Below, in pieces: positions 21,512-25,793 of a stretch of 35,341 nt of DNA (the stretch's first letter is position 1; every line of letters starts with the position of its first letter). The notes beneath the pieces were generated by a model. That model ran no database searches, was not told where the DNA came from, and worked only from the letters and a program-made list of their open reading frames with translations. The stretch is from contig JBAXGN010000070.1 in the NCBI GenBank assembly GCA_037139415.1, forward strand, positions 1 to 35,341, in the 5' to 3' direction. A program made the translations under genes and the position numbers. The stretch comes from Verrucomicrobiota bacterium (GTDB taxonomy: Bacteria; Verrucomicrobiota; Verrucomicrobiia; Limisphaerales; Fontisphaeraceae).

Positions 21512-22594
21512 ATGGCTGCCAAAACCACCGAAAAAACTGCGGAGAAAACTCCCGCCGCCGACACCAAGGCCGCTGAGGCCAAAGCCCTCTCCGCCACCCG
21601 CCAGCGCGACCTGGATGCCGCCATTTCCACCATCCATAAATCGTTTGGCGACGGTGCCATCATGCGCATGGGCGACGCCCGGGCATTGGTCAAGATTGAG
21701 GTGATCCCCACCGGGGCGTTGGCGTTGGATTTTGCCCTCGGGGTGGGCGGGATCCCGCGCGGGCGCGTGGTTGAAATCTACGGGCCGGAATCCTCGGGTA
21801 AAACCACGTTGATGCTGCACGTCATCGCCAACGCGCAAAAAGTCGGCGGCCTGGCAGCCTTTATTGACGCTGAACACGCCTTGGACCCGGCGTATGCCAA
21901 GAAGCTGGGCGTCAACCTGGACGACTTGCTGGTTTCGCAGCCGGATAGCGGCGAAGAGGCGCTGAGTATCTGCGAGACGCTGGCGCGTTCCAATGCGCTG
22001 GATGTCATCGTCGTGGACTCGGTGGCCGCATTGGTGCCCAAGGCGGAGTTGGAAGGCGAGATGGGCATGGCCACCATGGGCATGCAGGCCCGGCTGATGA
22101 GCCAAGCCCTGCGCAAGCTCACCTCCATTCTCAGCAAGGCCCGCACCACGTGCGTCTTTACCAACCAAATGCGCGAGAAAGTCGGGGTCATGTTCGGCAG
22201 CCCCGAAACCACCCCGGGCGGCAAGGCCCTGAAATACTACGCCAGCGTCCGCCTGGATATTCGCCGGAAAGACACCATCAAAGATGCCGCCGGCGCCGCC
22301 ATGGGCAGCCATGTCAAAGTCAAGGTCGTCAAGAACAAGGTCGCCCCGCCGTTTTCCGAGGCTGAATTCGACATCATCTTCAACCACGGCATCAACAAGG
22401 AGGGCAGCATCCTGGACGTGGCCATTGAACACGGCGTGGTAGAAAAGAAAGGCGCGTGGCTGCAATTTGCCGGGGAACTGATCGGCCAAGGCAAGGATGC
22501 CGCACAAAAAGCGCTGGCGGAAAAGCCCGAACTGGCAAAGAAAATCGTGGACGCGATCATGGAAAAACGCGCGGCCGCGCTACCGGGGGCATAA
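21512..22594 (+). CDS. recA: Recombinase RecA
   Basis: A 360-aa RecA, the ATP-dependent strand-exchange protein of homologous recombination and the SOS co-protease. Walker A is GPESSGKTT at residues 91-99. The Walker B region is [11 protein letters not shown]. The diagnostic [16 protein letters not shown] and the L2-side [18 protein letters not shown] are present, followed by RLDIRRKDT. The N-terminus has an Ala/Lys-rich extension of about 25 residues before the usual start ([19 protein letters not shown]). The C-terminus ends in a short Lys/Glu and Ala-rich tail. It runs into the URO-D-like gene, with 19 bp between the recA stop and the next ATG, so the two may share a transcript. Confidence 0.97.
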
Positions 22595-22613
22595 CACCGA
22601 AGCGCAATCCGCC

Positions 22614-23765
22614 ATGGGGCTCTCCACTCCGCAGGATGCGGTGCTGACCGTGCTGAAGCGCCAGCGCCCGGCGCGTTTGGTCTATGCGCCGAATTACTGG
22701 CAGTGGTATGTACACCAGCGCAACCACGGCCACCTGCCCGGTGACATCCGGTCTTGCCGCTCCCAACTGGAGTTGATCCGGCAGCTCGGGCTGGAGGTCT
22801 TCAGCCGGAACGTCTATTGCGACGAACAGCGCGGTTGGTTTGGCGGGTTGTGCGATGAAGTGTGGACCGGAGTGGATACGCGGGTGGAAGAAACCTTCGA
22901 GGGAAAAGACCGGCTCCTTGTCAAAACGTACCAGACCCGCAAGGGAACCCTGACGGAACGGCAGCGGTATGTGTTCGCGGAATCCACCCTCGTGCAAGAG
23001 CAGTTCGCGGTGGACAATCTGGACACCCAACTGGCGGCGCTGGAGGAATTGGTGGCGGGCCGGCGCTGGCGTTTTGTGCCGGAACGGTATGCGGCCAGCC
23101 GCGCGGCGGTGGGCAAGGACGGGGTGGTGGTCGCCGGCGAGGTCTTCAGTCCATTGAAACTGCTGCACCTGTTGGTGGGCGCGGTCAACACCACTTTCCT
23201 GATCATGGATCATGGCGACCAGGTGCGGGAAATCCTGGCCCGGCATGAATCGGCCCAGTTGGATTTGATCCGGCAAATGGCGGCGGCCGGGGTGCCAGCC
23301 ATCATGGCCATGGACAACCTGGACGCGGCCTTTCATACCCCGGCCTACGTGGACCGGTTCAGCGCCTCGTTTTACGAAAAGGCCAGCCGCCTCTGCCACG
23401 AATACGGCAGCACCTTTTTCATCCATGCCTGCGGACGCCAACGGGTCAACCTCAAACGCATTGACGCGCTGGGCGTGGACGGCCTGGAAGGAGTGGCCTT
23501 TCCGCCATTGGGCGATGTCACCCTTTTGGAGGCTATGCAGATGACCCGGGATCGCTTCCTCATCACTGGTGGCATCAGCGCCATGGAAACGCGCAATTTG
23601 AAAACCCGCGCGGACGTCTTTGAATACACCAGGCAGTTGGCGGATCAAATGCGCCCGTTTGCCCACCGTTTCATGCTATCCGCAAGCTGCAACACCCCCA
23701 TTGATGCCCGCTGGGAAACCCTGTGCGATTTCCGCGACGCCTGGCGGGAATTTGGGACGGTGTAA
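22614..23765 (+). CDS. URO-D superfamily protein, MtaA/MtbA-like methyltransferase type
   Basis: A 383-aa protein from the ATG at 22614; the frame extends upstream inside recA, but that part is recA shadow. The fold pattern is that of the uroporphyrinogen decarboxylase superfamily (AGVPAIMAMDNLDAAFHTP, VDRFSASFYEKASRLC, LITGGISAME). It has H271-x-C273 in FIHACGRQ and C359 in SASCNTP. This H-x-C...C arrangement is the zinc site of corrinoid:coenzyme M methyltransferases (MtaA, MtbA) in this superfamily. A methyl-transfer or demethylation role is therefore more likely than heme synthesis; the substrate is unknown. Its stop codon lies inside a 36-bp relic of a vapC gene read from the other strand, so the C-terminus may have been re-formed by a rearrangement, although FRDAWREFGTV looks like a natural family end. 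Confidence 0.8.
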   Translation: MGLSTPQDAVLTVLKRQRPARLVYAPNYWQWYVHQRNHGHLPGDIRSCRSQLELIRQLGLEVFSRNVYCDEQRGWFGGLCDEVWTGVDTRVEETFEGKDRLLVKTYQTRKGTLTERQRYVFAESTLVQEQFAVDNLDTQLAALEELVAGRRWRFVPERYAASRAAVGKDGVVVAGEVFSPLKLLHLLVGAVNTTFLIMDHGDQVREILARHESAQLDLIRQMAAAGVPAIMAMDNLDAAFHTPAYVDRFSASFYEKASRLCHEYGSTFFIHACGRQRVNLKRIDALGVDGLEGVAFPPLGDVTLLEAMQMTRDRFLITGGISAMETRNLKTRADVFEYTRQLADQMRPFAHRFMLSASCNTPIDARWETLCDFRDAWREFGTV

Positions 23766-23794
23766 CTTATCAGGTTGGTGTCAAACGAAAGCAG
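23759..23794 (-). pseudogene. Relic of a VapC (PIN toxin) N-terminus
   Basis: Read on the minus strand, 12 codons give LLSFDTNLISYT. They align without a gap to MISFDANLLLYA, the start of the intact PIN toxin at 25495; S, F, D, N, L and Y match, including the first catalytic Asp. The start codon is CTG where the intact gene has ATG. The relic lies 30 bp past the solitary antitoxin stop, where a toxin is expected. Homology stops at about 23759, and the URO-D stop codon TAA (23763-23765) lies within it. Confidence 0.65.
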
Positions 23795-23824: not shown

Positions 23825-24058
23825 TCAATCCTCATGCGCCAGTTCGGTCCACCGCTCGGGCGGGGCAAGAAACGGGCCGCAATCTCCGGGGGGTGGAAAA
23901 GCCCAAGTCTCCTCCGTATCCGTCTCCTGAGGATAGAGGCTGATGAGACGTTCCGCCCCGCGGCGGAAGGTTTCCGCCATGGACCATTCACGCTTGGCGG
24001 CAAAGCGCTTCACTTCGCGGTAAAGCTCGTCCGGCAGTTGGATTTGCGTCTTAACCAT
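23825..24058 (-). CDS. Solitary VapB-like ribbon-helix-helix antitoxin
   Basis: A 77-aa protein starting MVKTQIQLPDELYREVKRFA, an N-terminal strand plus helix-turn-helix of the RHH/CopG-type antitoxin fold; REWSMAETFRRGAERLI is the second helix. It is closely similar over about 42 residues to the antitoxin at 25492-25758 and has the same promoter arrangement. The C-terminus, which would bind the toxin, is shorter and diverged, and the partner toxin survives only as a 12-codon relic. It could still bind DNA or the intact operon's operator; that is inference. Confidence 0.75.
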   Translation of the reverse strand: MVKTQIQLPDELYREVKRFAAKREWSMAETFRRGAERLISLYPQETDTEETWAFPPPGDCGPFLAPPERWTELAHED

Positions 24059-24064
24059 AATGGA

Positions 24065-24093
24065 AATCTACCACTCCATCAAAATAATGTCTA
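24065..24093 (-). promoter_or_regulatory. Promoter of the solitary antitoxin, leaderless type
   Basis: On the minus strand: -35 TAGACA (24093-24088), a 17-bp spacer, -10 TAGATT (24070-24065), then 6 bases (TCCATT) and the ATG. The spacing is identical to that of the intact operon at 25765-25793. The spacer contains the degenerate dyad remnant ATTATTTTGAT. Confidence 0.6.
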
Positions 24094-24104
24094 AGGTAGA
24101 GTTT

Positions 24105-25045
24105 TGACCACCGATGGACAGGATGGACAAGATAAACAAGATGAACTGGCAAAAAGATGAAGGCCAGAAGATAGAAACTTGGAGTCAGGAGCTAGAATGC
24201 TGGGAAAAAGCACTCCAAAAGTAGTCCAAAATTACACCGGTACGGGTGGTGCAGTGAGGTGGTTTGATGTGGGAGATTGGTTCCTAAGTTTCTGCCAGAT
24301 AGGAAGTTGATTCGTTTGCGCCGACTCACGTCGGCGGCTACGACGAGGGTTGGCGGGGTAGTTTTGAAAATTGTGATGTTTTTGTGATGAAATAGAATTT
24401 CTCACACATTTTGTGATAAAAATGTGATAAAATGAAATTTTTATCACAATTCTTTGACTGCGGATGGCGCGGATGAGAAGCCGATACGTCCGAAGACCGA
24501 GCCCGAAAAACTTTTGCAGGGAAATGAAGACAGGATGGACAGGATGGAATAAGGCCGAAGACTGCAGCCCGCGAATCACGCCAATTGACGCGAACGACGA
24601 ACAAATCCGAATGCTGAAATTTTTTGCAGAAAAATGAACCGGCATAAATATGGGAGGCCGAACATGACAGGAAGATAGGAGCTTGGAGCAAGGAGATAGA
24701 ATGGCCAAACCGGGCGACTGGAAATCGCCGGTGGCTGGCTGCGAACTGTATCTATTGATAGCATTCATGGGATCAGAATAACATGAGTCCCGCGAAGCTG
24801 GTTCCCTCCGGGAGGGAAAAAATTTGAGTGACCAGTTATCAGCCATCAAGTTATTTAGGATTTAGGACCAAGATTTAGGATTTAGAATTTATGATTTATG
24901 ATTTCAGATAACCATAAAGCCATCGCCGCCCAAATCCTAAATCCTAAATCCGAAATCCTAAATTTCCCCGGTTGCCTATCGGCATTTCGTCTGTGACTTG
25001 TCCATTCTGCCCTCCATTCCGCAATCCGCAATCCGCAATCCGCAT
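24105..25045. repeat. Long gene-free stretch of degenerate repeats
   Basis: About 940 bp without a supported gene. 24105-24200 and 24513-24703 are diverged copies of one family (AAATGAACCGGCA, then CAGAAGATAG or AGGAAGATAG, AGCTTGGAG, AGAATG). 24371-24449 is AT-rich with four TGTGAT motifs and a 12-bp perfect inverted repeat (TTGTGATAAAAA at 24411-24422, complement at 24438-24449). 24713-24729 is a hairpin GGCGA/TCGCC with a CTGGAAA loop, like the REP hairpins near 21300. 24853-24905 and 24931-24965 carry ATTTAGGATTT units in opposite directions. 25019-25045 is a heptamer array. Confidence 0.6.
24853..24965. repeat. Oppositely oriented ATTTAGGATTT arrays
   Basis: The left arm (24853-24905) has the units ATTTAGGATTTAG and GATTTAGGATTTAG; the right arm (24931-24965) reads as their complement (AAATCCTAAATCC). 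The arms could pair across about 25 bp. Function unknown. Confidence 0.6.
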
Positions 25046-25048
25046 TCA
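25019..25048 (-). repeat. GGATTGC heptamer array beginning at the vapC stop codon
   Basis: Read on the minus strand, the vapC stop is the start of TGAATGCGGA, followed by TTGCGGA units three times and TTGCGGAATGGA. A matching array lies right at the stop of the GH106 gene (33842-33873). Confidence 0.7.
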
Positions 25049-25495
25049 CAAATTCCCCATCAGCGGGTTCCACACTTTTTTAAACCCGAACGCCTGAAAA
25101 TCCTTCACATTGGCGGTGGCGAACTCGGTGACGCCGTGATGGCGGAGGGTGAGCGCCAGGCGGGTATCATAAATGCGGCGGCGGGCGAAATTCGCCTGGG
25201 ATGCCAATTGCCATAGTTCCTGGTGCAACGCCACGCTATCGGTGGCAAAACCGACCAGCAACCAACGTGGGTGACGGCGATAGGCCTGGATGACGGCCGC
25301 CGCCGCCGCAGGATTCAGCGGATGGGTTAGCACCGCCGGGTTGCGCAGCAAGGTGTAAAACTCCGTCAGCACCAGTTCGGAAACGATCACCGTTTCGCGC
25401 GGTGATAGCGCTTCAAAAAATTCTTTGGCCTTGGCGTAGAATGGGCTGGCGGTGTTGCTGGCGTACAACAACAGATTGGCGTCGAATGAAATCAT
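25046..25495 (-). CDS. vapC: VapC-type PIN-domain toxin
   Basis: A 149-aa PIN-domain protein, expected to be an RNase toxin of a type II VapBC system. It starts MISFDANLLLYASN, with the first acidic catalytic residue at D4. Downstream acidic positions include SELVLTEFYTLL (E in the helix after strand 2) and the late RIYDTRLALTLRHHGV and FATANVKDF, the usual third acidic site and C-terminal NxxDF of PIN proteins. The ATG overlaps the antitoxin stop by 4 bases (ATGA), which favours translational coupling; the frame continues upstream but that is antitoxin shadow. The stop codon coincides with the start of a repeat array. Confidence 0.85.
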   Translation of the reverse strand: MISFDANLLLYASNTASPFYAKAKEFFEALSPRETVIVSELVLTEFYTLLRNPAVLTHPLNPAAAAAVIQAYRRHPRWLLVGFATDSVALHQELWQLASQANFARRRIYDTRLALTLRHHGVTEFATANVKDFQAFGFKKVWNPLMGNL

Positions 25496-25758
25496 GCGGT
25501 GTGATCCCCCGGCAAGCGCGCTTCCTGGTCTTCCAGGATGGCCTCGCGAACTTGCTCGTGGGTCAGTCCGCGCCAGCCCAAGTCCATCGGCTCCGGCAAT
25601 TTCCATTCCTTGCACACCGCATCGGCTTTGGGATAGCGATCCAGGAATTGCTCGGCGGCGCGGCGAATGGTCTCGGCCAAAGTCCATTCGCGCAGTTCCG
25701 CCAACGACTTGAGGTCACGGTACATGTCATCGGGCAATTGGATTTGCGTTCTAACCAT
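25492..25758 (-). CDS. vapB: VapB-type ribbon-helix-helix antitoxin
   Basis: An 88-aa antitoxin. MVRTQIQLPDDMYRDLKSLA plus REWTLAETIRRAAEQFLD form the ribbon-helix-helix DNA-binding domain. The acidic/hydrophobic tail (HEQVREAILEDQEARLP) is the usual toxin-neutralising segment. It overlaps vapC by 4 bases. Regulation is probably autorepression at the dyad ACATCA-AAA-TGATGT (25776-25790) that covers the spacer and -35 box. The ATG lies 6 bases after the -10 box, so the mRNA is probably leaderless. Confidence 0.85.
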   Translation of the reverse strand: MVRTQIQLPDDMYRDLKSLAELREWTLAETIRRAAEQFLDRYPKADAVCKEWKLPEPMDLGWRGLTHEQVREAILEDQEARLPGDHTA

Positions 25759-25764
25759 GAGTTA

Positions 25765-25793
25765 AATGTACAGCAACATCAAAATGATGTCAA
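25765..25793 (-). promoter_or_regulatory. vapBC promoter with internal operator dyad
   Basis: On the minus strand: -35 TTGACA (25793-25788), a 17-bp spacer, -10 TACATT (25770-25765), then TAACTC and the ATG. The perfect dyad ACATCA/TGATGT with a 3-base centre (25776-25790) sits in the spacer and overlaps the -35 box, a logical place for VapB binding. Confidence 0.65.

Follow-up and report, generated by a model that had tools for sequence, protein, structure and literature searches.

The vapB1 and vapB2 loci

We analysed a stretch of 35,341 nucleotides (nt), referred to here as the window, which is contig JBAXGN010000070.1 of a Verrucomicrobiota bacterium (GenBank assembly GCA_037139415.1, a 7.9-Mb draft in 378 contigs), and in which two genes for VapB antitoxins, vapB1 and vapB2, are read on the minus strand. 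vapB1 (25492–25758) encodes a ribbon-helix-helix antitoxin of 88 amino acids with Arg at residue 3, which scores 25.3 bits against PF01402 (cut-off 20.5). It is followed, with an ATGA overlap, by vapC1 (25046–25495, minus strand), encoding a PIN toxin of 149 amino acids (92.4 bits against TIGR00028, cut-off 73.6; 28.1 bits against PF01850, cut-off 23.6), and the vapBC1 pair looks intact. vapB2 (23825–24058, minus strand) encodes a ribbon-helix-helix antitoxin of 77 amino acids with Lys at residue 3 that is 45% identical to VapB1 across query residues 1–69. Its PF01402 score, 15.7 bits, lies below the cut-off; against the family profile A1, which contains the VapB2 sequence itself, it has an E value of 8.3e-36. 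VapB2 has its nearest homologue, L004, in another genome of the same order (84% identity across 74 columns).

Both genes are directly preceded by promoter-like boxes on their own strand. Before vapB1 the arrangement is TTGACA-17-TACATT-6-ATG (25793–25756), consisting of the -35 box TTGACA (25788–25793), a spacer of 17 nt (25787–25771), the -10 box TACATT (25765–25770; A at -11 and T at -7 relative to the ATG, as in the homologue columns described below), the six bases TAACTC (25759–25764) and the ATG (25758–25756). Before vapB2 it is TAGACA-17-TAGATT-6-ATG (24093–24056), with the -35 box TAGACA at 24088–24093, the -10 box TAGATT 17 nt away at 24065–24070, the six bases TCCATT at 24064–24059 and the ATG at 24058–24056. 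A first-pass annotation of this DNA had described a -35 box, a 17-bp spacer, a -10 box, six bases and then the ATG in both copies, and this description is exact on the sequence. The six bases before vapB1 contain an in-frame TAA (at 25764, one codon between it and the ATG) and the -10 box of vapB2 contains an in-frame TAG (at 24070, three codons between). Since no in-frame ATG, GTG or TTG lies between stop and start, neither vapB can start earlier.

A promoter scan recovered both sites, with 10 of 12 matches for copy 1 and 9 of 12 for copy 2, and found 5 sites over 2.7 kb where 2.4 (standard deviation 1.7) were expected; two such promoter sites in 2.7 kb are unremarkable on their own. What goes beyond chance is the fixed placement of the boxes relative to the ATG across homologues.

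Placement of the boxes relative to the start codon

Relatives were sought by protein alone. They came from the best 80 of 306 (one genome per species); further matches came from 58 relatives (10 with a match), 293 genomes of the order (48), 387 genomes of the phylum (32), 247 genomes of the phylum of an acidobacterial match (8) and all 14 genomes behind the named loci. Ten weaker or partial matches were left out of this collection, and hits that lay at most 45 nt from an end or stopped short of profile position 3 were excluded without being counted; near-duplicate proteins were removed as well. Merging of duplicates gave 170 distinct upstream regions, 164 of them with E < 1e-12; the six others (L140, L141 and L209–L212), with E over 1e-12, were set aside. 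A first set, made up of the named loci and the two copies of the window, comprised 78 regions after removal of four near-identical upstreams. An initial search of genome contigs in which VapB1 was the only query returned no relatives, and neither did plasmid searches with two family members or one scan of viral contigs. We scored the full geometry strictly as a -35 box with at least 5 of 6 matches to TTGACA, a spacer of 16–18 nt, a -10 box with A at position 2 and T at position 6, and 5–8 nt to the ATG; a looser criterion accepted a -35 box at 4/6.

Among the 89 homologues with less than 70% antitoxin identity, a -35 box with at least 5/6 matches started at -37 to -34 in 75, including 24 of the 30 with less than 50% identity, and the full geometry was found in 68 (21 of the 30). 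Mononucleotide shuffles of the 89 regions gave the full geometry in 0.55 on average and in 3 at most, and windows slid 10–50 nt upstream gave it in 0–1. Over all 164 regions the figures were 142 for the -35 box and 129 for the full geometry. In the first set, a -35 box with at least 5/6 matches started 37–34 nt before the ATG in 69/78, and the full geometry was present in 67/78, as compared with 1/62 neighbouring open reading frames (ORFs) and an average of 0.38 for shuffled sequences. The columns of this set are prominent at T-35, A-11, T-7 and C-1, with almost no information from -60 to -40, and they match textbook sigma-70 numbering if +1 is the A of the ATG. T-7 occurs in 134/158 regions, A-11 in 119/158 and a pyrimidine at -1, the favoured context for a transcription start, in 153/158. 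The modal arrangement in the looser scan (4/6) is a 17-nt spacer with 6 nt to the ATG (33 of 75 scored). The start codon itself, in 87 loci found without a pattern that requires ATG, was ATG in 81, GTG in 1 and TTG in 0; five homologues have no usual start codon at this point while the frame continues (L114 ATA, L119 ATT, L146 GAG, L160 ATC and L185 ATA).

The box-to-ATG spacing is conserved in homologues, as the leaderless interpretation of the first-pass annotation predicted, and together with columns that fit sigma-70 numbering when +1 is placed on the A it lends that interpretation support. The annotation had named a lack of such conservation as grounds for refutation, and on this point it was not refuted. 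We propose that a sigma-70-type promoter drives each vapB: because the -35 box begins at -35 and the -10 box ends at -7, transcription would start on, or about one base from, the A of the ATG and would yield a leaderless mRNA. The start of RNA polymerase can shift by a few bases, as textbooks describe, and the gap between -10 box and ATG is 7 nt in 15/75 and 8–9 nt in 4/75, which would suit a leader only a few nucleotides long and a near-leaderless mRNA; set against this are the modal gap of 6 nt (52/75) and the pyrimidine at -1, which favours the A of the ATG. We regard such a short leader as unlikely, though a serious candidate; at one base it coincides with the leaderless reading, and the likelihoods of the two are not exclusive.

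The first-pass annotation had also taken the mRNAs to have no ribosome-binding site. Copy 1 indeed has no Shine-Dalgarno (SD) 4-mer at -19 to -4; copy 2 has GGAG within the promoter spacer, where it would go untranscribed if the mRNA is leaderless. In our host sample no SD peak is visible before long ORFs, and Akkermansia muciniphila and another member of Verrucomicrobia have been called SD-scarce (PMC10783764). Because the host looks SD-poor, a missing SD is not diagnostic, and we dropped it as evidence for leaderless mRNAs.

The same geometry stands before other antitoxins of the host. An antitoxin-like ORF precedes 16 of 18 other PIN, ParE or PemK loci in its genome, and among these 16 the geometry was present strictly in 8 and at 4/6 in 11; the same procedure on 494 long host ORFs, 232 of them preceded by a small ORF, gave 2/232 and 7/232. 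Loci without an antitoxin-like ATG ORF were excluded from the rates (2/18 here, and 6/28 in the relatives considered below). Read from their sequences and not from a family scan, these other antitoxins appear to be of the Phd, AbrB, other VapB or ParD types. The loci sharing the layout of -35 box, 16–18 nt, -10 box, 5–7 nt and ATG are L233, L234, L235, L236, L240, L242, L245 and L249. Before long host ORFs, taken from the leftmost ATG, the geometry occurred strictly in 8/216 and at 4/6 in 15, compared with 4–11 in windows slid 3–24 nt. A small TANNNT excess at -12 (4.6%) is seen in long host ORFs (L213–L232 and the window). There is a hint that a few percent of the host's genes may be leaderless; leaderless-type promoters seem to be a minority in this genome and common among its toxin–antitoxin operons.

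Beyond Verrucomicrobiota, 19 loci chosen by title or search group had the geometry strictly in 14 and at 4/6 in 17. They represent Planctomycetes, Deltaproteobacteria, other Proteobacteria, Spirochaetes, Acidobacteria, Poribacteria, Caldilineales and Mycobacterium, assignments that come largely from metagenome-assembled genomes, which may include misbinned contigs; the titles of the three Mycobacterium records name strains. These three non-tuberculous isolates have the 17 and 6 spacing with a -35 box of only 4/6. Loci titled Lentisphaerae, Kiritimatiellaeota, PVC group or bacterium were counted apart, and 7 of 8 had the strict geometry.

Putative operator half-sites, residue 3 and the remnant of vapC2

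The upstream region of vapB1 contains the dyad ACATCA-TTT-TGATGT (25776–25790, minus strand), a putative VapB1 operator. The first-pass annotation had recognized this dyad and placed it between the promoter boxes; the dyad is present but does not lie wholly between them, as it takes in the final three bases of the -35 box. A search of the 7.9-Mb genome for the related pattern TTGACATCA-N0-8-TGATG finds just two sites (0 for a control pattern), the second of which sits just before another vapB. In ribbon-helix-helix repressors of the CopG/Arc/FitA type, every second residue of the N-terminal strand serves to read bases. The likeness of the present family to these proteins lies in the match of VapB1 to Pfam RHH_1; it has no close solved relative, the best PDB sequence match of the profile being VapB26 (E 0.00055). 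We propose that the antitoxin probably acts, by itself or together with VapC, as repressor of the operon that encodes it, binding ribbon-helix-helix half-sites that would lie over both promoter boxes and, in some homologues, over the start codon too.

The half-sites differ between the two copies, as does residue 3. Copy 1 (Arg3) has ACATCA/TGATGT; copy 2 (Lys3) has TGATGG (24076–24081, minus strand), a putative operator arm and the complement of the Lys3-type half-site, and CCATTA (24058–24063, minus strand), which ends on the A of the start codon and carries CC at -5,-4. This CC is typical of Lys3 homologues, being present in 34/54 as against 2/56 Arg3 homologues. Residue 3 and base -5 were the strongest of 1760 residue–base pairs after average-product correction, and because the pair was chosen as the top of these 1760, its association figures are not free of selection. 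None of 5000 traits simulated on the best tree showed an association as strong. Greedy selection of independent pairs on that tree, most of which is unsupported, gave 9 pairs in the same direction, 0 in the opposite one and 7 without a difference; the tree, built from 75 protein columns, is poorly resolved (13/124 branches starred), and only 2 independent pairs lie on starred branches, which limits any tree-based proof of repeated Lys/Arg switching. Exceptions to the rule exist in both classes, with C-5 absent from 22/61 Lys3 rows and present in 3/65 Arg3 rows. The equivalent position of the strand makes base contacts in repressors of the CopG type.

This covariation bears on the dyad of copy 2, which had been described as decayed. 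It is altered, and it may be re-specified rather than decayed; the evidence for re-specification is moderate, because the nearest homologue of vapB2, itself Lys3, has no CC at -5,-4.

It also bears on what the conserved box is. Half-sites that overlap the promoter boxes, and a residue 3 that covaries with a box base, would be expected if the box were only a ribbon-helix-helix operator, its likeness to a -35 element coming from the ACATCA within TTGACATCA and the true start lying elsewhere. Yet the -35 box stays TTGAC when the Lys3 half-sites go from ACATC to CCATC (Lys3, 42/54; Arg3, 44/56; TTGCC in 1 and 3, respectively), the same geometry occurs in host operons with antitoxins that are apparently not of the ribbon-helix-helix type, and from -60 to -40 there is no other conserved block. 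We therefore consider an operator without a promoter improbable; with the -35 box unchanged while the half-site switches, the same 36 bases seem to be under both constraints. Unconstrained inheritance among close relatives, which would fit the homology of all loci and a protein tree that resolves few branches, is very improbable, given that the flanks from -60 to -40 are unconserved while the -35 box holds below 50% protein identity (24/30) and that other antitoxins of the same genome share the geometry.

In this family VapC is present in 151 of the 163 loci that have at least 300 nt downstream. Downstream of vapB2, all that is recognizable of a PIN toxin is a stub of 11 residues, LLSFDTNLISY (23762–23794, minus strand), which corresponds to the first residues of such a toxin and is identical at 9/11 positions to the VapC adjoining the nearest vapB2 homologue. 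vapB2 is an orphan antitoxin, its toxin gene truncated to this remnant. On the opposite strand, a URO-D-like gene (22497–23765, plus strand) ends where it meets the vapC2 stub. Intergenic CATCCTGTCCATC words lie at 24113–24125 and 24534–24546 (minus strand); the 435 kb of host sequence contain this word 7 times, against 0 in a reversed control, and it is possibly a dispersed repeat.

Probably leaderless toxin–antitoxin operons

We consider it highly likely that the two vapB genes are served by sigma-70-type promoters locked to their start codons, with mRNAs predicted to be leaderless and an antitoxin that probably represses its own synthesis through half-sites lying over the boxes. Several observations weigh against this reading. 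The geometry is absent from 21/89 homologues strictly and from 16/89 at 4/6, two named Acidobacteria (L038 and L075) being among the strict failures, and the -35 box of copy 2 is TAGACA. Eight weaker or second hits from genomes outside Verrucomicrobiota gave 0 strict and 1 at 4/6; the geometry therefore belongs to the core family and not to its remote members. Other PIN loci of relatives fit in only 5/22 strictly and 7/22 at 4/6 (of 28 loci in all, the number obtained from a longer list of matches). Before any ATG of the raw host sequence the geometry occurs at 3.2 per thousand, compared with 2.3–4.2 before other triplets of the same letters; being no commoner before ATGs generally, it marks these genes and not ATGs at large. 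An SD 4-mer occurs in 6/78 vapB and 11/62 neighbouring ORFs, which is no clear separation. With regard to the operator, the nearest vapB2 homologue departs from the CC rule as described above, and strong-armed inverted repeats are found in only 18/89 regions, as compared with 10/445 shuffled ones, an excess that is real and modest; 12 of the 18 reach the ATG, and we do not claim a universal palindrome. Finally, L048, whose TTGACA stands at -47 where its close relative L054 has it at -37, is a natural variant that may have a leader.

Leaderless toxin–antitoxin operons are already known in Mycobacterium tuberculosis, where 32 of the 37 toxin–antitoxin pairs with a primary transcription start site were mapped as leaderless (PMC3898074), and the vapB promoters described here extend that pattern. 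This is the clearest measured case that we found, and the two share a TANNNT -10 box just upstream of the start and, in M. tuberculosis, a predominance of leaderless transcripts among the toxin–antitoxin pairs (PMC3898074). They differ in that no conserved -35 motif is reported there, whereas TTGACA is strongly conserved here, and in that the starts of M. tuberculosis were mapped, whereas those considered here, in a different phylum, are predicted (PMC3898074). MazE6, an antitoxin of another family, binds an operator of 18 bp that includes the TANNNT -10 box (PMC9477884); binding was measured in that case, while the putative half-sites in the present family may extend as far as the start codon. 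Of the 76 systems in Synechocystis, only three loci have been suggested to be leaderless (PMC4963859). Zheng et al. 2011 predicted TA-led leaderless bacterial genes from a Pribnow-like signal about 12 bp before the start codon (PMC3160421), and a signal of this kind is the mark of predicted leaderless genes here too; unlike the present analysis it is a genome-wide survey, and its main text contains neither "toxin" nor "Verrucomicrobia". In the titles and abstract openings listed by our searches of the open-licence literature we found no description of such leaderless promoters for Verrucomicrobia, and a search of the open-licence literature combining Verrucomicrobi with dRNA-seq (a method of mapping 5' ends) and transcription start site gave no match.

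The finding is broader than the two genes of the first-pass annotation, as it concerns a ribbon-helix-helix vapBC family of several phyla and other toxin–antitoxin operons of the host, whose mRNAs are very probably leaderless. More tentatively, and with clear doubt, we suggest that joining a promoter directly to the start codon creates a portable expression cassette, independent of the host, that needs neither a leader nor an SD and has been adopted by toxin–antitoxin operons with different antitoxin families across phyla; the antitoxin would then cover promoter, start site and start codon at the same time, and the Lys/Arg switch at residue 3 would set the half-site and insulate sister systems in one cell. 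The rule linking residue 3 to a base is simple and testable with purified protein, and the geometry provides a sequence signature by which leaderless genes can be predicted and which helps to fix the start codons of antitoxins. That a vapBC family of Verrucomicrobiota and several further phyla carries a start-codon-locked promoter, and that the host has one ahead of other antitoxins too, suggests selection on toxin–antitoxin operons as a class.

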